Below, one piece after another: positions 47,106 through 56,104 of a stretch of 64,000 nucleotides of DNA. The notes under the pieces are model-generated. The model was given only the letters and a program-made list of their open reading frames with translations. It was not told where the DNA came from and did no database searches. Source of the stretch: Candidatus Arcticimaribacter forsetii. GTDB lineage: Bacteria > Bacteroidota > Bacteroidia > Flavobacteriales > Flavobacteriaceae. The stretch lies in NCBI RefSeq assembly GCF_910589745.1, contig NZ_OU342399.1:1240001-1304000 (forward strand), written 5' to 3'. The translations under genes and the position numbers were made by a program. Numbering within the stretch: the first letter of the stretch is position 1; each line of letters starts with the position of its first letter.

Positions 47106-47202
47106 CATGAAAGTAAATCAAATCGATTGTTTTTTGAGAAATTCGAAAAAATGAGATGTTCTTTGGTAGTCTTAATATATTTTGTGAAATTTGTAACATC
47201 TT

Positions 47203-47304
47203 ATGAAAGAAAACTATACACATAACAACACACCCGCTGTTTTAACCAACAGTAGATTCCCGCGTGTTTACCGCTGTCGCCCTTTGGGGTATTTTTTCGT
47301 GTAG
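47203..47304 (+). CDS. Arginine-rich leader peptide ORF upstream of the arginine operon
   Basis: A 33-codon ORF from ATG 47203 to TAG 47304, beginning MKENYTHNNTPAVLTNS and ending RFPRVYRCRPLGYFFV. Four Arg codons (AGA, CGT, CGC, CGC at residues 18, 21, 24, 26) cluster in nine residues, and the CGN codons are unusual in this AT-rich genome. Right after them is a short CCC/GGG hairpin and a T6 run (47280-47297). A CTGTT/AACAG hairpin (47237-47252) precedes them, and CTGT recurs at 47274-47277, so alternative pairing is possible. Position and content suggest an attenuation leader; the mechanism is inferred. Confidence 0.55.
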   Translation: MKENYTHNNTPAVLTNSRFPRVYRCRPLGYFFV

Positions 47305-47374
47305 AAACTCAGGTGAGTCCGGTTTCAAAATCAACATCCATTTTTTTTTACAATTTCAACTTAATATTCCAATA

Positions 47375-47905
47375 ATGAAAATCGTTATTGCCAGCACAGA
47401 ACACATACATTTAGCAAAGACCATAAGTCTTTGTATCGATGAGTCCGCAAAAGACAGAGGAACCGGTATTGCAAGAAGAACACCTGAATATATTCATAAA
47501 AAAATGCAAAATGGGAATGCTGTCATTGCCCTAGAGGGAGATAAATTTGCGGGATTTTGTTATATCGAAGTTTGGGGACATGGAAAATATGTTGCTCATT
47601 CAGGTCTTATTGTCTCTCCTGAATTTAGAGGACAAGGTTTAGCAAAAAAAATTAAGAAAAAAGTTTTTGAACTATCACTAGAAAAATACCCTGGAGCAAA
47701 AATATTTGGAATAACAACAGGTCAAGCGGTAATGAAAATCAATTATGAGCTAGGTTACAAGCCAGTTCATTTTTCAGAGCTTACAGACGATCCTGAATTT
47801 TGGAATGGATGTCAAACTTGTAAAAACTATGATATTCTAACCCGGACTGAACGAAGTATGTGTTTATGTACGGGTATGCTTCATGATCCAAATGAAAAAA
47901 AATAA
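47375..47905 (+). CDS. GNAT acyltransferase at head of arginine operon, candidate N-acylglutamate synthase
   Basis: A 176-residue GNAT starting MKIVIASTEHIHLAKTI. The acyl-CoA motif is VSPEFRGQGLAKKIKKKVFEL (80-100). The C-terminal tail carries Cys146, Cys149, Cys163 and Cys165 (CQTC and CLC), possibly a metal site. It directly precedes argG (30 bp) in an operon that has every other arginine step but no argA or argJ. The Bacteroidota route uses N-succinylated intermediates, so it is a good candidate for glutamate N-succinyl- or N-acetyltransferase. An in-frame extension to 47264 lies in the leader region and is unlikely. Confidence 0.7.
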   Translation: MKIVIASTEHIHLAKTISLCIDESAKDRGTGIARRTPEYIHKKMQNGNAVIALEGDKFAGFCYIEVWGHGKYVAHSGLIVSPEFRGQGLAKKIKKKVFELSLEKYPGAKIFGITTGQAVMKINYELGYKPVHFSELTDDPEFWNGCQTCKNYDILTRTERSMCLCTGMLHDPNEKK

Positions 47906-47935: not shown

Positions 47936-49123
47936 ATGAAAAAATTAGTTCTCGCTTATAGTGGAGGTTTAGACACCTCATACTGCCTAAAAACACTTTC
48001 TAAAGAAGGCTACGAAGTTCATGCAGTTAGTGTGAATACTGGTGGTTTTTCGGAGCAAGAAATTATAGATCAAGAATCTAAAGCCATGCAAATGGGGGCT
48101 AGTACTTACACCTCAATAAACGCATTAGAATCGTTTTACCAAAAAATTGTAAAATATTTAGTTTTTGGAAATGTACTAAAAAATAACAGCTATCCATTAT
48201 CTGTTAGTGCAGAACGTATTATACAAGCGGTTGAAATCATTTCCTATGCCAAAAAAATAGGAGCTCAATATATTGCCCATGGAAGTACGGGGGCTGGGAA
48301 TGATCAGGTTCGTTTTGATTTAATTTTTCAAGTATTGGCTCCAGGAATTGAAATTATTACTCCAATTAGAGACCAACAACTCTCTAGGGAAGCAGAAATT
48401 GAATACCTAAAATCAGAGGGAATAGAACTCTCATGGGAGAAAGCACAATATTCAATTAATCAAGGTCTATGGGGAACTAGTGTTGGAGGTAGTGAAACAC
48501 TTACATCACATCAAGCTTTACCTAGTTCAGCATATCCGAGTCAATTAGTGAAATCCGAATCAAAGAAAATTACACTTGATTTTGAAAAAGGAGAATTAAA
48601 AGGAATAGATGGAGTAAAAGGAAATTCGGTTGCCCTTATTCAACAATTACAAGAAATTGCAAAAGGTTATGCTATTGGAAGAGATATTCATGTAGGAGAT
48701 ACGATTATTGGGATAAAAGGACGCGTAGGTTTTGAAGCTGCAGCTCCTTTGATTATAATAAAAGCACATCATTTACTAGAAAAACATACCCTCTCGAAGT
48801 GGCAACAATTTCAAAAAGAACAGATGGGGAGTTTCTATGGTATGCAATTACATGAAGGAAATTATTTAGATCCCGTTATGAGAGATATTGAGTCTTTCCT
48901 GGAGAGTAGTCAAAAAACTGTAAACGGATCTGTAACCCTAACATTACATCCCTACCGTTTTGAGATGGAAGGAATCCAATCCCCGAACGATTTAATGAAT
49001 GCTTCTTTTGGAAGTTATGGAGAAATGAATAAAGGCTGGACAGCAGATGACGCTAAAGGTTTTATAAAAATAACAGCAAACGCACATACCATTTATGGGA
49101 GTGTAAACAATAACGATATATAA
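47936..49123 (+). CDS. argG: Argininosuccinate synthase ArgG
   Basis: A 395-residue N-type PP-loop enzyme that condenses citrulline and aspartate. The PP-loop is LVLAYSGGLDTSYCLKTL (4-21). IAHGSTGAGNDQVRFDLIF, SINQGLWGTSVGG and HEGNYLDPVMRDIESFLESSQKTVNGSVTL are diagnostic. Length is normal for the family. It is second in the operon after the GNAT and overlaps argC by one base (TAATG). Confidence 0.97.
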   Translation: MKKLVLAYSGGLDTSYCLKTLSKEGYEVHAVSVNTGGFSEQEIIDQESKAMQMGASTYTSINALESFYQKIVKYLVFGNVLKNNSYPLSVSAERIIQAVEIISYAKKIGAQYIAHGSTGAGNDQVRFDLIFQVLAPGIEIITPIRDQQLSREAEIEYLKSEGIELSWEKAQYSINQGLWGTSVGGSETLTSHQALPSSAYPSQLVKSESKKITLDFEKGELKGIDGVKGNSVALIQQLQEIAKGYAIGRDIHVGDTIIGIKGRVGFEAAAPLIIIKAHHLLEKHTLSKWQQFQKEQMGSFYGMQLHEGNYLDPVMRDIESFLESSQKTVNGSVTLTLHPYRFEMEGIQSPNDLMNASFGSYGEMNKGWTADDAKGFIKITANAHTIYGSVNNNDI

Positions 49124-50097
49124 TGAAAACAGTAGGTATAATTGGTGGATCAGGGTATACAGGAGGAGAACTACTAAGACTTGTTCTGAATCATCCAGCA
49201 CTTGAATTAAACTTTGTTTACAGTACAACAAGACCAGGTTTTGCAATAAGCGATACCCATCCAGATTTACTTGGAACAACTTCTATGAACTTTACAGATC
49301 AGGTGAATTTAGAAGTTGATGTAGTTTTTCTTTGCCTTGGTCATGGAAATTCTTCTAAATTTTTAGAGCAGAAAAGATTTTCTGACCAGACTATAATCAT
49401 TGACTTAAGTAATGATTTTAGACTATCAAGCGATAGTGAATTTATGGGAAGAAAATTCATCTACGGCTTACCTGAACTTAATAAAGAAGCCATTGAACAA
49501 ACAAATGCAATAGCAAATCCAGGATGTTTTGCAACCGCAATTCAATTAGCATTACTTCCTTTAGCAAAGGAAAATAAGCTTTCGAACAGTGTTCACATTA
49601 ATGCAACTACTGGAAGTACTGGAGCGGGTGTTGGTCTTTCTGCAACTGCTCATTTTAGTTGGAGAAACAATAACGTATCCTGGTACAAACCCTTTACGCA
49701 CCAGCATCTTGGAGAAATTAATGAAACCATTGAAACTCTTCAAGGGTCAAAACCTCAAATTCATTTTTTACCCCACCGAGGTGATTTTACCAGAGGAATT
49801 TTTGCTACGGCGTACACCTCATATCAAGGAACTTTGGAGGAAGCAAAGGAACTTTACAAAAACTATTATGCAAATGATCCTTTTACACATGTTTCAGAAC
49901 AAGAAATTTCTTTAAAACAGGTCATAAACTCAAATAACTGCTTCATTCACTTACACTTGCATGAAGGCACTTTACTGGTTACATCAGTGATCGACAATTT
50001 AATTAAAGGAGCATCTGGACAAGCTATTCAAAATTTAAATTTAATTTTTGGATGGGAAGAAAAATTAGGACTAAACTTAAAAGGGTCTACTTTTTAA
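49123..50097 (+). CDS. argC: N-acyl-gamma-glutamyl-phosphate reductase ArgC
   Basis: A 324-residue NADPH-dependent reductase. The Rossmann motif is GIIGGSGYTGGELLRLVLNHP (5-25). The active-site Cys lies in AIANPGCFATAIQLALLP and HFLPHRGDFTRGIFATAY is the conserved C-terminal block. It reduces N-acylglutamyl phosphate to the semialdehyde; the acyl group is probably succinyl here. It overlaps argG by one base. Confidence 0.97.
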   Translation: MKTVGIIGGSGYTGGELLRLVLNHPALELNFVYSTTRPGFAISDTHPDLLGTTSMNFTDQVNLEVDVVFLCLGHGNSSKFLEQKRFSDQTIIIDLSNDFRLSSDSEFMGRKFIYGLPELNKEAIEQTNAIANPGCFATAIQLALLPLAKENKLSNSVHINATTGSTGAGVGLSATAHFSWRNNNVSWYKPFTHQHLGEINETIETLQGSKPQIHFLPHRGDFTRGIFATAYTSYQGTLEEAKELYKNYYANDPFTHVSEQEISLKQVINSNNCFIHLHLHEGTLLVTSVIDNLIKGASGQAIQNLNLIFGWEEKLGLNLKGSTF

Positions 50098-50113
50098 AAC
50101 TAAATAAAACATA

Positions 50114-50908
50114 ATGAAAATTGCAATTATAGGTACTGGGAATCTTGGTTTAAGCATCGCAAAAGGCTTAATTATTAATAATACAATCACAAAACTGTAT
50201 CTTACAAAGAGAAATTTAAGTTCAATAGAAGAATACGGAGCTAATAAAAATGTGATACTAACTACGGATAATTCGGAAGCAATTACCAACTCTGATATTT
50301 TAATTTTTGCAGTTCAACCGGGTCAATTTGAAAACATACTTTCCTCTATAAAGCATTTGCTAACGGACAAGCATGTTATTATTTCTACAATAACTGGATT
50401 TAAAATTGAGCGAATTGAACGCATTATCGGTGCCGAGTTTCCAATAATTCGAAGCATGCCTAACACTGCAATATCTGTTGGTAAATCAATGACTTGCATT
50501 TGCTCTAATGAAGTTGGTAAAAAACGTATTGATATTGCGAGTGCAATCTTCAATGGATTGGGAACTTCGATTAAAATATCAGAGGAGAATATGCAAGCTG
50601 CCACAGTAATCTGTGCAAGTGGAATTGCATTTTGGATGCGATTAATTAGAGCCATGACTCAAGGTGGAGTTCAGCTAGGTTTTGAAGCAAAAGAAGCTAT
50701 GGATATGGCAATGTATACTGCCTTAGGAGCAGCAACACTTTTGAATGAAAATAAGTCTCACCCAGAAGAGGAAATTGATAAAGTTACAACTCCAAGAGGA
50801 TGTACTATTACAGGTTTAAATGAAATGGAACACCAGGGACTTAGCTCCTCGTTAATACAAGGGTTAACAGCATCATTTAATAAGATTAACGAAATCTCAA
50901 CAGAATAA
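50114..50908 (+). CDS. proC: Pyrroline-5-carboxylate reductase ProC
   Basis: A 264-residue NAD(P)H enzyme, final step of proline synthesis. The nucleotide motif is IAIIGTGNLGLSIAKGLII (3-21). IIRSMPNTAISVGKSMTC and the C-terminal EEIDKVTTPRGCTITGLNEMEHQGLSSSLIQGL are ProC hallmarks. It lies within the arginine operon without proA or proB, 16 bp after argC and 2 bp before argD. It presumably uses pyrroline-5-carboxylate made elsewhere, or from ornithine. Confidence 0.95.
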   Translation: MKIAIIGTGNLGLSIAKGLIINNTITKLYLTKRNLSSIEEYGANKNVILTTDNSEAITNSDILIFAVQPGQFENILSSIKHLLTDKHVIISTITGFKIERIERIIGAEFPIIRSMPNTAISVGKSMTCICSNEVGKKRIDIASAIFNGLGTSIKISEENMQAATVICASGIAFWMRLIRAMTQGGVQLGFEAKEAMDMAMYTALGAATLLNENKSHPEEEIDKVTTPRGCTITGLNEMEHQGLSSSLIQGLTASFNKINEISTE

Positions 50909-50910
50909 AT

Positions 50911-52050
50911 ATGAAGTTATTTGATGTTTACCCACTTTATGAAGTAACACCTGTAAAAGCAAAGGACGTTTATGTATACGATGAAAAAGGCACTGAATAT
51001 CTAGACCTATATGGAGGACATGCTGTTATATCAATCGGTCATGGACATCCACATTACATCAAAAAAATAAAAGATCAGTTAGATAACATTGGTTTCTATT
51101 CAAATGCAATACAAAACCCTTTGCAACAAGAGCTTGCAGATGGTATTGGGTACCAATCTTGTTGCCATGATTACCAATTGTTTTTATGTAGTTCTGGTGC
51201 GGAAGCTATTGAAAATGCTTTAAAGCTTGCTTCTTTTCATACCGACAAAAAAAGAATTATAGCTTTTAAAAACGCATTTCACGGAAGAACCAGTGCAGCA
51301 GTTGCGGCAACAGACAATCCAAATATAAATGCACCTTTAAACAAACAACAGGCAGTTACTTTTATTGAATTTAATGATGCTAAAAGTCTTGAAGAAGAAC
51401 TTCAAAAGGGAGATGTTTGTGCAGTAATTTTTGAAAGTATTCAAGGAGTTGGTGGATTAGATCAACCGACAGATGATTTTGTTTTAGAAATGAATCGTCT
51501 TTGTAAACACTATAATAGTTGTTTAATTGCAGACGAAGTTCAGTCCGGATTTGGAAGAACAGGAACCTTCTTTGCATATCAAAAATATGCTATAGAGCCA
51601 GACATTGTTACTATGGCCAAAGGGATGGGGAATGGATTTCCTATTGGAGGAATTTTAGTTCATCCTAACATCAAAGCTAAATACGGTATGTTAGGGACTA
51701 CATTTGGTGGTAATCATCTAGCCTGTGCAGCCTCTATTGCAGTTTTGGAAGTTTTAGAAAAAGAAAACTTACAAGCGAAAGCGAAAGCTATGGAATCTTA
51801 CTTTGTAGAACAAGCAAAAGAGATTCTGCAAGTGTCCAAAATAAAAGGACGTGGATTAATGTTAGGACTTGAATTTAACTTTGAAGTGGGTGATCTAAGA
51901 AAAACATTAATTTACGATAAAAAAATATTTACTGGAGGAAGTAGTAACAAGAAACTACTGAGAATTTTACCCCCCTTAACGGTCCAGAAAAAACATATTG
52001 ACTATTTCTTTAAGAGTTTAAAAGAAGCACTTAAAGAACATAAAAACTAA
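50911..52050 (+). CDS. argD: N-acylornithine aminotransferase ArgD
   Basis: A 379-residue PLP aminotransferase of class III. The motif LYGGHAVISIGHGHPHYIK (31-49) is followed by LCSSGAEAIENALKLA and KRIIAFKNAFHGRTSAAVAATDN. CLIADEVQSGFGRTGTFFAY and the PLP lysine in DIVTMAKGMGNGFPIGG complete the site. It converts N-acylglutamate semialdehyde to N-acylornithine. It is 2 bp after proC and 3 bp before argF'. Confidence 0.95.
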   Translation: MKLFDVYPLYEVTPVKAKDVYVYDEKGTEYLDLYGGHAVISIGHGHPHYIKKIKDQLDNIGFYSNAIQNPLQQELADGIGYQSCCHDYQLFLCSSGAEAIENALKLASFHTDKKRIIAFKNAFHGRTSAAVAATDNPNINAPLNKQQAVTFIEFNDAKSLEEELQKGDVCAVIFESIQGVGGLDQPTDDFVLEMNRLCKHYNSCLIADEVQSGFGRTGTFFAYQKYAIEPDIVTMAKGMGNGFPIGGILVHPNIKAKYGMLGTTFGGNHLACAASIAVLEVLEKENLQAKAKAMESYFVEQAKEILQVSKIKGRGLMLGLEFNFEVGDLRKTLIYDKKIFTGGSSNKKLLRILPPLTVQKKHIDYFFKSLKEALKEHKN

Positions 52051-52053
52051 CAA

Positions 52054-53001
52054 ATGAAAAATTTCATATCCCTTACTGACCTTCCAAATTTTGATGCTGC
52101 CTTAGAACTTGCTAAATCTCTAAAGGAGGATCCTTATGCATTCGAAAATCATGCAAAAAGGAAGACTTTAGGGTTAATATTTTTCAATCCAAGTTTAAGA
52201 ACACGATTAAGCACCCAGAAAGCAGCTCAGAATTTAGGATTCGAAACCTTAGTAATGAATTTCTCAAACGAAGCTTGGGCTCTTGAATTTGAAGATGGAA
52301 CAGAAATGCGAGGAATTCGTTCTGAACATGTTCGAGAAGCAGCAGCCGTTATTTCTCAGTATTGTGACGTTGTAGCAATTCGTGCTTTTGCTTCCCTTAA
52401 TAACAAAGAACAAGACGAAGCAGAAATTGTTTTAAACAGTTTTGCTAACTACGCAAGTATTCCAGTAATCAATATGGAAAGTGCTACCGGTCACCCCCTA
52501 CAAGCTCTGGCAGATGCATTAACTTTAGCAGAACATAAAACACTTCATAAACCAAAAGTTGTTTTGTCCTGGGCACCACATCCAAAAGCATTACCCCATG
52601 CGGTTGGTAATTCTTTTGTTAAAATGATGGAACATCAAGATGCAGAATTTGTAATAACAAACCCAGAAGGATATGATCTAGATCCTAGAATTACAAAAGA
52701 TATTCCTGTGATTCATAATCAAGAAGAAGCTTTAAAAAATGCTGATTTTGTATATGCAAAAAACTGGTGCTCTTACTCAAATTATGGCTCTATACTCAGA
52801 ACAGATGACGAATGGATGCTAACAGCTGACAAGATGAAATTAACAAATAATGCTAAATTTATGCATTGTCTTCCAGTACGAAGAAACATTGTAGTAGCTG
52901 ATGGAGTTTTAGATAATTCTAACTCGCTGGTTATAGAACAAGCGAATAACAGAACTTATGCTGCACAAGCTGTTCTAAAAACAATAATCGATCATGTCTA
53001 A
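52054..53001 (+). CDS. argF': N-succinylornithine carbamoyltransferase ArgF'
   Basis: A 315-residue transcarbamylase of the acylated-ornithine type. The carbamoyl-phosphate loop reads FNPSLRTRLS (44-53), unlike the STRTR of ornithine carbamoyltransferases. The acyl-pocket segment is MRGIRSEHVREAA (85-97) with Ser90, where N-acetylornithine enzymes have Glu and B. fragilis succinylornithine transcarbamylase has Pro. As I recall, changing that Glu to Ser or Pro gives succinyl specificity. The C-terminal HCLPVRRN motif is present. It yields N-succinylcitrulline. It overlaps argB by 8 bp. Confidence 0.9.
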   Translation: MKNFISLTDLPNFDAALELAKSLKEDPYAFENHAKRKTLGLIFFNPSLRTRLSTQKAAQNLGFETLVMNFSNEAWALEFEDGTEMRGIRSEHVREAAAVISQYCDVVAIRAFASLNNKEQDEAEIVLNSFANYASIPVINMESATGHPLQALADALTLAEHKTLHKPKVVLSWAPHPKALPHAVGNSFVKMMEHQDAEFVITNPEGYDLDPRITKDIPVIHNQEEALKNADFVYAKNWCSYSNYGSILRTDDEWMLTADKMKLTNNAKFMHCLPVRRNIVVADGVLDNSNSLVIEQANNRTYAAQAVLKTIIDHV

Positions 53002-53767
53002 ACTAAATATTGTAAAAGTTGGTGGAAATGTAATTGAAAACCCTAAAACGTTATTCCCATTTCTTCAAGAATTTGCAAAATTAGAAGGAAATAAAATCCT
53101 TGTTCATGGTGGGGGTAAAAAAGCTACACTTTGGGCTGAGCGTTTAGGTATTCCTGTACAAATGAATGATGGACGAAGAATTACTGATGCTGAAACTCTA
53201 GAGCTAATAACTGGAATTTACGGAGGTCAAGTTAATAAAAACATTGTTGCCCTACTCCAAGGGCTGGACTGTAATGCCATCGGATTATCAGGGGCAGATG
53301 GAAATGCGATTAGAGCTAAAAAAAGACCTGCAAAACCAATTGATTATGGGTTTGTTGGAGATGTTACATTGGTTAACTCTGCATTTTTTGTTAATTTATT
53401 AAAACAAAAATTAAGTCCAGTTTGTTGTGCATTAACTCATACAGGTTCCGGTCAAATCTTAAACACAAATGCAGACACGATTGCCTCAAAAATTGCAGTA
53501 GCACTAAGCACTAAATTTGAAGTAAACTTATTTTATTGTTTTGAAAAACCTGGGGTATTAGAATCTGTTGAGGAAGATGATTCCCTGATTGAACATATAG
53601 ATTCAAAAAAATATAAAGAATTAAAAGAACACAAAATTATTCATGAAGGTATGCTACCGAAAATGAAAAATGCATTTGATGCACTTAATCAAGGAGTCTC
53701 AAAAGTAGCGATTGGAAAACCGGAAATGATTGGTGGAAAAATTAAACATACCTCATTAACACTATAA
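52994..53767 (+). CDS. argB: N-acylglutamate kinase ArgB
   Basis: A 257-residue amino-acid kinase. It starts KLNIVKVGGNVIENP with the phosphate-binding GG, then ILVHGGGKKATLW. The substrate Arg lies in DGRRITDAETLEL. LSGADGNAIRAKKR, TNADTIASKIA and EGMLPKMKNAFDALNQGVSKVAIGKP complete the fold. It phosphorylates N-acyl-glutamate, in this pathway probably the N-succinyl form. Feedback by arginine is known for some ArgBs, but the N-terminal helix typical of arginine-sensitive enzymes is not apparent. Confidence 0.95.
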   Translation: MSKLNIVKVGGNVIENPKTLFPFLQEFAKLEGNKILVHGGGKKATLWAERLGIPVQMNDGRRITDAETLELITGIYGGQVNKNIVALLQGLDCNAIGLSGADGNAIRAKKRPAKPIDYGFVGDVTLVNSAFFVNLLKQKLSPVCCALTHTGSGQILNTNADTIASKIAVALSTKFEVNLFYCFEKPGVLESVEEDDSLIEHIDSKKYKELKEHKIIHEGMLPKMKNAFDALNQGVSKVAIGKPEMIGGKIKHTSLTL

Positions 53768-53768
53768 A

Positions 53769-54827
53769 ATGAACGAAGTCTTAACCCAAGAAGCCTTAGC
53801 ATTGTTAAAAGATTTAATTTCAATTCAATCTTTTTCAAGCGAAGAACAAGGAACAGCAGAAAGGATAGAAAAATGGTTTACAGACCATGACATTCCATTC
53901 ATGCGTGAAAATAATAATGTTTACGCCTTCAATCATACGTTTGAAGAAGGTAAACCTACCCTACTTTTAAATTCACATCACGATACTGTAAAACCAAATA
54001 GTGCTTATACCAAAGATCCATTTCAACCCCATGTAGAAGATGGAAAACTCTATGGTTTAGGGAGTAACGATGCAGGAGGTCCACTCGTTTCACTGATTGC
54101 ACTTTTTACACATTACTATGAACATCCTAACCCAAAATACAATCTCATTATCGCAGCTACTGCGGAGGAAGAAAGCTCTGGTCCTTTGGGGCTCAACTCT
54201 CTTTTAAAAACATTACCACCTATTGATGTTGCAATAGTGGGAGAACCTACCCTGATGCAACTAGCTGTAGCTGAGAAGGGTCTGGTTGTATTTGACGGAG
54301 TTATTTCTGGAACAGCAAGTCACGCTGCACATCCAAATGATGATAATCCAATCATGAAACTACCAGGAGTATTACAGTGGTTTAATGACTTTGAATTCGA
54401 AAAAGTATCAGATCAATTAGGACCTGTAAAAATGACCGTAACACAAGTAAGTGCTGGAAAACAACACAATGTAGTTCCTGCCGAAGTAAATTTGGTTATT
54501 GATGTTCGAGTGAATGACCGTTATACTAATCAAGAAATTGTTGATTTACTTCAAAAGGAAGCTCCTTGTAAATTAACGCCTAGATCAATAGATCTAAATT
54601 CCTCATCAATTCCTTTAGATCATGAATTGGTAACAACAGGAATAGAATTAGGAAGAAAACCATACGGATCTCCTACCCTATCAGATCAAGCAAAATTATC
54701 TTGTCCTTCCCTAAAACTTGGTCCTGGAGACTCGACAAGATCACATACCGCAAATGAATACATTCATGTCTCTGAAATTGAGGAGGGCATTTCTATATAT
54801 ATCAACTTATTGAATGAAATCTTATGA
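53769..54827 (+). CDS. argE: M20 family deacylase (ArgE/DapE-type), N-succinylcitrulline desuccinylase
   Basis: A 352-residue M20 metallopeptidase-fold deacylase. It shows metal ligands HHDTVKP (about 66-72), GLGSNDAGGPLVSLI, the catalytic Glu pair in AATAEEESSGPLG, and a dimerisation lid with HAAHPNDDNPI. The C-terminal GPGDSTRSHTANEYI supplies the last His. In an operon with a succinylornithine-type transcarbamylase it should remove the acyl group from N-succinylcitrulline, giving citrulline. The substrate is inferred from context. Its end overlaps the argH start by 4 bp. Confidence 0.9.
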   Translation: MNEVLTQEALALLKDLISIQSFSSEEQGTAERIEKWFTDHDIPFMRENNNVYAFNHTFEEGKPTLLLNSHHDTVKPNSAYTKDPFQPHVEDGKLYGLGSNDAGGPLVSLIALFTHYYEHPNPKYNLIIAATAEEESSGPLGLNSLLKTLPPIDVAIVGEPTLMQLAVAEKGLVVFDGVISGTASHAAHPNDDNPIMKLPGVLQWFNDFEFEKVSDQLGPVKMTVTQVSAGKQHNVVPAEVNLVIDVRVNDRYTNQEIVDLLQKEAPCKLTPRSIDLNSSSIPLDHELVTTGIELGRKPYGSPTLSDQAKLSCPSLKLGPGDSTRSHTANEYIHVSEIEEGISIYINLLNEIL

Positions 54828-56104
54828 AACTTTGGCAAAAAGGTAACGCAGCACATCAAAAAGTAGATCATTTTACCGTTGGTAGTGATCGCGAATACGA
54901 TTTATTACTAGCAGCATATGACTGTGAGGCATCTAGCGCTCATGCTCAAATGCTAGCTAAAATTGGACTTTTAACTAAGGAAGAAGCCAATTTAGTTACC
55001 CTTGCTTTAAATAATCTAAAAAAGAAAGCTCTAGAAGGGAGCTTTACGATAGAAGATGAATTTGAAGATATGCATTCTAAAATTGAACATGTTCTAACCG
55101 ATCAATTAGGTGATTTAGGGAAAAAAATACACACTGCACGATCTCGAAATGATCAAGTTTTAGTTGCAATGCACTTATATCTAAAAAATGAAATTACTGG
55201 AATTAAAAAAACTGTAATTGAATTATTCGATCTTTTAATGAGTTTAGCAGAACAACATAAAAATGAATTAATCCCAGGTTACACCCATTTACAAGTAGCC
55301 ATGCCATCTTCTTTTGGAATGTGGTTTTCTGCTTATGCCGAAAGTCTAATTGATGATGTTCAGTTTTTAAACACTGCATTTTGTTTAGTAGATCAAAATC
55401 CCCTAGGTAGTGCAGCAGGATATGGTAGTTCGTTTCCTATTGACAGAGAATATACTACTGAAGCATTGAACTTTGGAACTTTAAAATACAACTCCGTTGC
55501 AGCTCAAATGAGTCGTGGAAAAGTTGAAAAAACAACAGCTGTTGCACTAAGTATGGTGGGAAGTACACTTTCTAAATTTGCTATGGACGTTTGCTTATAT
55601 ATGGGGCAAGATTTCAATTTTGTATCCTTTCCAGATGATCTTACAACAGGTTCGAGTATAATGCCACATAAAAAAAATCCTGATATTTTTGAATTGATCC
55701 GAGGTAAGTGTAATGCTCTTCAAGCTTTACCAACCCAATTAACTTTACTAACAACAAATTTACCCTCCGGTTACCATAGGGAGTTACAACTTGCTAAAGG
55801 TCCAATAATTGATGGAATTCAAGAATTAAAAGCATGCTTAGATATGTTGTTGTTTAGTCTTCCAAAAATTGAAGTTTCAAAAAACATAACCGATCAATCT
55901 AAATATGATTACCTCTTTAGTGTTGATACATTGAATGCAAAAGTTCAAGATGGAATGCCTTTTAGAGATGCCTATAGAGAATTAGGAAATGCAATTGAAA
56001 ATGGAGATTATGATCCAAACCGTTCAGTTGAACACACTCATTTAGGAAGTATTGGAAACTTAGGGTTAGAACAGATTAGAGAAAAAATGAATGGGTTACG
56101 TTAA
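54824..56104 (+). CDS. argH: Argininosuccinate lyase ArgH
   Basis: A 426-residue fumarase-superfamily lyase that cleaves argininosuccinate to arginine and fumarate. HTARSRNDQVLVAMHLYLK and GYTHLQVAMPSSFGMW precede the flexible catalytic loop GSSIMPHKKNPDIFELIRGK with the active-site Ser. NPLGSAAGYGSSFPIDREYT is also canonical. It is the last gene of the arginine operon, slightly shorter than the E. coli enzyme. No terminator hairpin was seen in the 98 bp before the next gene. Confidence 0.97.
   Translation: MKLWQKGNAAHQKVDHFTVGSDREYDLLLAAYDCEASSAHAQMLAKIGLLTKEEANLVTLALNNLKKKALEGSFTIEDEFEDMHSKIEHVLTDQLGDLGKKIHTARSRNDQVLVAMHLYLKNEITGIKKTVIELFDLLMSLAEQHKNELIPGYTHLQVAMPSSFGMWFSAYAESLIDDVQFLNTAFCLVDQNPLGSAAGYGSSFPIDREYTTEALNFGTLKYNSVAAQMSRGKVEKTTAVALSMVGSTLSKFAMDVCLYMGQDFNFVSFPDDLTTGSSIMPHKKNPDIFELIRGKCNALQALPTQLTLLTTNLPSGYHRELQLAKGPIIDGIQELKACLDMLLFSLPKIEVSKNITDQSKYDYLFSVDTLNAKVQDGMPFRDAYRELGNAIENGDYDPNRSVEHTHLGSIGNLGLEQIREKMNGLR

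Follow-up and report, generated by a model that had tools for sequence, protein, structure and literature searches.

A conserved arginine-codon leader ORF and two hairpins upstream of the GNAT-argG arginine operon in Flavobacteriaceae

The arginine operon of Candidatus Arcticimaribacter forsetii is preceded by a short ORF rich in Arg codons, which raises the question of whether the ribosome translating this ORF senses arginine on behalf of the operon. We analyzed the region within a window of 64,000 nucleotides (the whole stretch of DNA studied), which comes from a genome of 2.03 Mb in one contig, and compared it with the same region in relatives. The original prediction, made from the window, had described a 33-codon ORF with four Arg codons 70 bp before the first operon gene, and we confirmed this ORF at 47203-47304. 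It is almost certainly a real, conserved arginine leader ORF, and it very probably senses arginine via its codons. The features of the region, in window positions, are as follows.

47186..47193, + strand: tentative -7 promoter box GAAATTTG, which departs from TAnnTTTG at one position and lies 9 nt ahead of the leader's ATG
47203..47304, + strand: Arg-codon leader ORF, 33 codons, ATG to TAG; frame and Arg codons conserved
47237..47252, + strand: weak upstream hairpin CTGTT/AACAG within the leader, also in a locus of the same genus (L003)
47279..47290, + strand: hairpin 1, GCCC-UUUG-GGGU, its 5' arm starting within the last Arg codon
47292..47297, + strand: T6 between hairpins 1 and 2, in a linker that is T-rich in relatives
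47304..47326, + strand: hairpin 2, GAAACU..GG-UGAGU-CC..GGUUUC, with a covarying stem and a near-fixed core
47375..47905, + strand: first operon gene, GNAT acetyltransferase (PF00583, 33.4 bits)
47936..49123, + strand: argG, argininosuccinate synthase, second gene (PF00764, PF20979)
49123..56104, + strand: remaining operon: argC, proC, argD, acetylornithine carbamoyltransferase, argB, argE-like and argH

The leader ORF (47203-47304, + strand) encodes the peptide MKENYTHNNTPAVLTNSRFPRVYRCRPLGYFFV, in which Arg occupies residues 18 (AGA), 21 (CGT), 24 (CGC) and 26 (CGC). It carries no annotation; its stop codon runs to 47304 and the next gene begins at 47375, which leaves the gap of 70 bp. We deduce the role of this GNAT gene in arginine synthesis from its position, and it may be the first-step acyltransferase of the group. 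The sole NCBIfam model that touches it (47375-47905) scores 26.2 bits, far below the cut-off of 154. Among named matches to the GNAT gene, the best comes from Candidatus Arcticimaribacter, with 91% identity. The acetylornithine-type carbamoyltransferase of the operon scores above its curated cut-off, the argE-like gene codes for a deacylase, and proC (50114-50908; 210 bits, cut-off 197) also lies within the operon.

In the window itself, hairpin 1 has four pairs only (-5.7 kcal/mol), and 1 of 200 shuffles was equally good. Hairpin 2 is unremarkable by itself (-6.1 kcal/mol; 28 of 200 shuffles equally good), and the CTGTT/AACAG hairpin reaches -2.6 kcal/mol (11 of 200). Folding the whole region of the window gave no improvement over shuffles, and the covariance models of 4,227 Rfam families, T-box included, gave no match at gathering score anywhere in the window. 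It is by conservation, not by the window sequence alone, that the leader element exceeds chance.

We searched a sample of the same family containing about one genome per genus. The GNAT gene was present in 130 of 199 genomes (129 of 198 genera), and the upstream DNA of all 130 was taken. A covariance model of hairpins 1 and 2, termed R1, was built from 78 loci and applied with E values up to 0.01; in the window it matched 47269-47328 with 52 bits. R1 matched the DNA ahead of the GNAT gene in 124 of the 130 family genomes (68/70 plus 56/60). Half of the sampled loci (65/130) are rows of the model or copies of them, all of which match; among the held-out loci, 59 of 65 match. The alignment from which R1 was made (A2) holds 78 of 111 listed loci, 33 having been dropped for shortening by no rule, and another alignment (A1) holds 133 of 183 loci chosen for the loop motif GGTnnG[TC]CC. 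Because loci were chosen via the loop motif, the invariance of the loop in A1 and A2 is by selection, and loop counts in the family sample were taken on R1 matches instead.

Conservation of the frame and of the Arg codons in relatives was the check that the original prediction had itself proposed, and when run, it came out strongly in favor of the leader. With the frame defined by reading hairpin 1 as CGC-CC, the Arg frame was open over 66 nt upstream in 122 of 124 family loci, compared to 25 and 32 for the other two frames. An ATG, GTG or TTG was found 45 to 115 nt upstream in 122 of 124 loci (11 and 16 in the other frames), and ATG alone in 66 (2 and 2). The leaders contained 375 Arg codons among 1,240, compared to 66 and 33 in the other frames, and a control region farther upstream had 0.48 Arg per ten codons. 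The same held for held-out R1 matches, where the frame was open in 59 of 59 (other frames, 12 and 14), and beyond the part covered by the model, at codons 4 to 10 before the hairpin, where Arg accounted for 184 of 868 codons in the 124 loci (54 and 31 in the other frames).

The choice among Arg codons was also distinctive. The CGN codons had been described as out of place in this DNA, which agrees with the nine genes of the operon, where AGA supplies 37 and CGY 17 of 73 Arg codons. Across the family sample, the leader Arg codons were CGT or CGC in 337 of 375 cases (90%), and the parts of the GNAT gene from 130 loci used CGY for 152 of 512 Arg codons and AGA or AGG for 259. This preference could come partly from the need for a G+C hairpin. 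The RFPRVYRCRPL-like peptide proposed as a check is not conserved as such; it is the Arg codons running into the hairpin that are conserved. Typical leader endings in the family are ..RRRP-stop and ..RRPLGV-stop, and outside its Arg residues, the proximal peptide shows no conservation in most family genomes.

The two hairpins are placed in a constant manner with respect to this frame. The stop codon follows 6 nt after the start of hairpin 1, at its loop, in 99 of 122 family loci, with the last Arg codon in the 5' arm; in this species, the leader stop codon touches the first base of hairpin 2. Hairpin 1 starts 31 to 36 nt ahead of the core of hairpin 2 in 123 of 124 loci. Hairpin 2 (47304-47326) is a conserved element that the original prediction had overlooked. 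Its stem averages 6.2 bp, compared to 4.25 bp when the 3' flanks were swapped between loci (top of 200 swaps, 4.56), and is at least 5 bp long in 120 of 124 family loci. Its core is GGTGAGTCC in 80 of the 124 R1 matches, GGTGTGTCC in 24, GGTGCGTCC in 8 and others in 12. Such a conserved loop suggests that something reads it. A second reading frame across hairpin 2 was dropped by eye, as the frame shifts between subgroups, and a Shine-Dalgarno-like site was dropped as well, the base after GGTG being A, T or C.

We measured covariation on 94 of 100 loci aligned by fitting to the model, so that this alignment leans towards it. The two-hairpin structure had 86.5% of cells paired and eight pairs changed on both sides, with a covariation of 0.234, compared to 0.129 for shuffled alignments (0 of 500 as high) and 0.152 and 0.070 for slides by one column. 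Hairpin 2 supplies seven of the eight covarying pairs and nearly all of the covariation. In hairpin 1, a single pair changes in this way, from CG to AU at two loci, and the outermost pair is open in 25 of 93. Two stem columns of hairpin 2 are unpaired in about half of the rows (47 and 48), which we read as an apparent one-base register shift between subgroups. When the stretch was folded in isolation, 112 of 124 loci formed hairpin 1 and 107 formed hairpin 2; with the arm of hairpin 1 masked, hairpin 2 persisted in 84. RNAalifold favored a long-range pairing of the Arg-codon CGCC with the GGUG of hairpin 2; we rejected it since it shows no covariation. The four A changes in the core, by contrast, preserve hairpin 2 through a matching T.

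Six family genomes had no R1 match (L129, L141, L179, L200, L210 and L211). Four of them keep a short ORF with at least two Arg in the last 12 codons, by a rule that was applied without a control; L200 and L211 had no such ORF. A species-rich genus of the same family, g127, gave no R1 match in the 17 genomes listed for it in the phylum sample. At two of its loci (L246 and L248, the latter being the place of L200), another ORF lies at -329 from the GNAT start and reads, in both genomes examined, MNKISLHITSLSRT.SP.TSPEVR.LS.-stop, with two Arg only, both CGG, and a hairpin that we judged by eye to stand ahead of the second Arg codon. A distal ORF, M..KNKIR..PGLP.R.RRRF-stop, occurs about 300 nt before the GNAT start in 24 of 211 loci scanned. 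It belongs to one subgroup (e.g., L126, L137, L138 and L141) and precedes the usual leader; in L141, only the distal ORF was found. Differences by codon position are 0.234, 0.273 and 0.293 in the 14 of these 24 ORFs that are equal in length. There is no synonymous pattern, and we rejected the distal ORF as proof of coding; the third positions are hardly freer, and therefore RNA or peptide may be constrained. Longer leaders of about 40 to 45 codons, ending in RR or RRR, were seen in L252, L259, L263, L266, L268, L270 and L210. FLSAADK is common to L210 and L252, L266 has FFSATGK, and AVLF occurs in all three. L210 is of this long-leader type though its genome is in the window's family.

The original prediction had also placed a CCC/GGG hairpin followed by T6 behind the Arg codons. 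Both parts are present in the window, but the T6 does not generalize to relatives: a relaxed hairpin-plus-T test was passed by 38 of 124 family loci (5.8 when shuffled), the window's own not included, and nearly all of these consist of hairpin 1 plus part of the linker. In the linker, T peaks 9 to 12 nt past hairpin 1 (0.63 to 0.78 T in 166 of 183 motif-selected loci). No canonical terminator was found on the + strand of the window region. The CTGTT/AACAG hairpin, proposed to precede the Arg codons, is likewise present in the window, with modest enrichment in the family (53 of 124 loci, compared to 27 when codon-shuffled). The second CTGT, proposed for competing pairing, does lie beside hairpin 1, but no competing partner rises above chance. 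An antiterminator was not apparent either; the freed 3' arm of hairpin 1 pairs downstream in 96 of 124 loci, compared to 102.6 for shuffled sequences. A cluster of partners 28 to 35 nt past the core of hairpin 2 (96 of 431 pairs) was rejected as chance, shuffled tails giving a mean of 114.55.

The same genome carries leaders of the ordinary kind. A His leader, MIKTNLHTHHHTSDSSEI-stop, lies upstream of hisG (L274, contig C1, about 1,189 kb), and a Phe leader, MNTTTTYFNRFFFFFYPEDNRAL-stop, lies before the gene for prephenate dehydratase (L275, C1, about 1,716 kb). Both look ordinary: behind each come a hairpin and at least 7 consecutive T. The region upstream of ilvD in this genome showed nothing obvious. 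Because it has no canonical terminator, unlike the His and Phe leaders, we regard the arginine leader as a new variant within known leader-peptide control.

We then looked outside the family. In a sample of the class, 58 of 149 genomes carried the GNAT gene. Of these, 54 belong to other families, and tests were run on the 26 best-scoring of these 54. An Arg-ending leader, with at least three Arg in the last ten codons, was found at 18 of the 26 loci, compared to a shuffle mean of 1.2 (maximum 5 in 200 shuffles) and 2 for the reverse strand. At the leader ends of these 26 loci, each of the remaining 19 amino acids stayed at or below the mean of its own 20 shuffles. Four of the 26 had no visible leader and were dropped, the remaining 22 being picked by eye. 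A hairpin at the leader end was present in 19 of these 22, compared to 7.4 when codon-shuffled (maximum 13 in 200 shuffles), and its 5' arm overlaps an Arg codon in 15. This wider definition was adopted after seeing the result of a narrower one, a hairpin spanning the stop codon, which gave 14 of 26 compared to 8.0 shuffled. The hairpin sequences include AGGGT/ACCCT, AGGCCC/GGGTCT, CGCCC/GGGCG and ACGC/GCGT; since they differ, it is the architecture that is kept, not the sequence. A hairpin with a Y-N-N-G-Y loop and two closing G-C pairs lies downstream in 11 of 26 loci, compared to 0.14 shuffled, one of the eleven (L269) probably being mis-parsed. The margins of all these outside-family counts are generous, because the tests were designed after reading the same loci.

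R1 itself was specific. In a phylum sample of 296 genomes, searched with stricter filters that lose weak matches, 13 matches were strong (E up to 2.1e-9), and every one of them lies in this family, ahead of GNAT-argG. A further 22 weak hits outside the family, in 20 genomes (E 6.5e-4 to about 0.0096), were taken as chance because no operon gene lay near the 17 with loci (L228-L244). In its own genome, the only strong match is at the arg locus, and the other hits (E 0.4 to 3) had no arg genes.

The region ahead of the leader contains a candidate promoter. Of 122 family loci, 58 have a -7-like box no more than 24 nt from a leader start, compared to 38 of 366 matched control sets, and the strict form TAHHTTTG gave 26 and 7, respectively; the commonest distance from box to start is 7 nt (23 loci). 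A sigma-70 type promoter was rejected, with one match compared to 1.0 expected. The -7 box is placed at -12 to -5 in the available portions of PMC6847099 and PMC9723704, and so at the commonest distance the leader would have about three untranslated bases before it, which is unusual.

We propose a mechanism in which transcription start, translation, stalling, direction of control and termination are inferred from this arrangement. RNA polymerase would probably initiate a few bases upstream of the ATG of the leader, and since transcription would start so close to it, the ribosome would load near the 5' end of the mRNA. When the Arg-tRNA that reads CGY is charged, the ribosome would pass the Arg codons, end and leave, the site of termination in most family loci being the stop codon in the loop of hairpin 1. 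With the ribosome gone, hairpins 1 and 2 could form and would lower operon output, most likely by premature termination, either weakly intrinsic (hairpin 1 and the T-rich linker) or by Rho. When arginine is short, the ribosome would stall with an Arg codon in the A site, on the 5' arm of hairpin 1; hairpin 1 would be prevented, and the operon would be expressed. Because the control codons form or adjoin that arm, a stalled ribosome would cover it, a geometry that takes the size of the ribosome footprint into account. With the codons so placed and the freed arm pairing at chance level, the simplest model is that the ribosome blocks the hairpin directly and no antiterminator is involved. We consider it probable that the element works in this full sense as a cis-acting, ribosome-mediated arginine sensor. 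A broader proposal is tentative, and we lean somewhat against it: a class-wide arginine attenuator with codons in the 5' arm of a hairpin that is blocked without an antiterminator, in which hairpin 2, with its conserved Y-N-N-G-Y pentaloop and near-constant distance, would replace the U-tract terminator and be read by RNA polymerase, Rho or another protein.

The same sensor could have another output: as with orf34-speF of Salmonella, the position of the ribosome would not end transcription but alter how stable the mRNA is or how the first gene is translated. The missing U-tract terminator would fit, as would the near-fixed loop of hairpin 2 as a site of binding or cleavage, and orf34 has Arg codons and hairpins at the stop codon and downstream, resembling hairpins 1 and 2, in the available part of PMC6386406. 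However, the GNAT start lies at least 38 nt past hairpin 2 (median 49, n = 124), so that neither hairpin directly covers it, and we regard this output as rather unlikely. Arrest by the nascent peptide, which would stall the ribosome together with free arginine or ornithine, could account for the subgroups in which more than Arg is conserved (the distal ORF, and the longer leader with its shared residues). We judge it improbable, given that the non-Arg residues of the proximal peptide are not conserved in most family genomes and that the Arg codons alone recur across families. Most improbable of all is a protein-free, riboswitch-like RNA regulator with arginine or a related molecule as its ligand, in which the Arg codons would be incidental. 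The nearly invariant core of hairpin 2 would suit such an RNA, which no Rfam family matches, but the open frame, the start codons and the Arg codons outside the hairpin argue against it, and other families keep Arg-ending leaders although their hairpin sequences are unrelated.

Sensing of arginine by the translating ribosome, the reading that we prefer, can be set beside known systems. T-box riboswitches sense tRNA charging for amino-acid operons and need no ORF; the window has no Rfam match of any kind. The arginine leader resembles classical his, trp and phe attenuators in being a short ORF before an operon, enriched in codons for the end product. It differs from them in that the control codons stand within the 5' arm of the hairpin and reach the stop codon, that there is no canonical U-tract terminator and no antiterminator was found, and that a second hairpin is added with a near-fixed loop at a near-constant distance. 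A literature search, with most subscription journals outside its scope, found no description of this element. Lopatovskaya et al. (2010) reportedly treat attenuation across bacteria and could hold a precedent. The genus of F. psychrophilum presumably belongs to the same family as the window's species. The available text of PMC9723704 reports strong clues that amino-acid operons of F. psychrophilum are attenuated by leader peptides, along with 5' elements conserved ahead of pheA and hisG, among others, and this text names no arginine operon or Arg leader. Small ORFs of B. thetaiotaomicron are described as reminiscent of attenuation leaders in the available part of PMC7366714.

The closest worked-out arginine case that we found is orf34-speF (PMC6386406, available part). 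Like the arginine leader, it consists of a short ORF in which Arg codons stand in a row, with one hairpin at the stop codon and another just downstream; arginine controls the gene behind it, as we propose here. It differs in its gene downstream, speF (ornithine decarboxylase), compared to GNAT, argG and the rest of the operon here, and in its phylum. According to the same part of that source, its peptide is conserved (DUF2618), its start site lies 516 nt before speF, and the participation of Rho and RNase G was shown by experiment.

This tiny gene rich in Arg codons, kept by most related genera that have the operon, most likely serves as a switch: a ribosome that runs out of arginine would activate the pathway. 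Since ordinary His and Phe attenuators are present in the same genome, the lowering of output without a terminator could be compared with them side by side. The comparative set of 124 family loci and 22 outside the family shows the end hairpin rewritten while the Arg codons beside or inside it stay, and it includes hairpin 2, whose loop hardly changes. Leader-peptide control by arginine may be the norm across a large branch of the Bacteroidota, before an operon that is widely kept.
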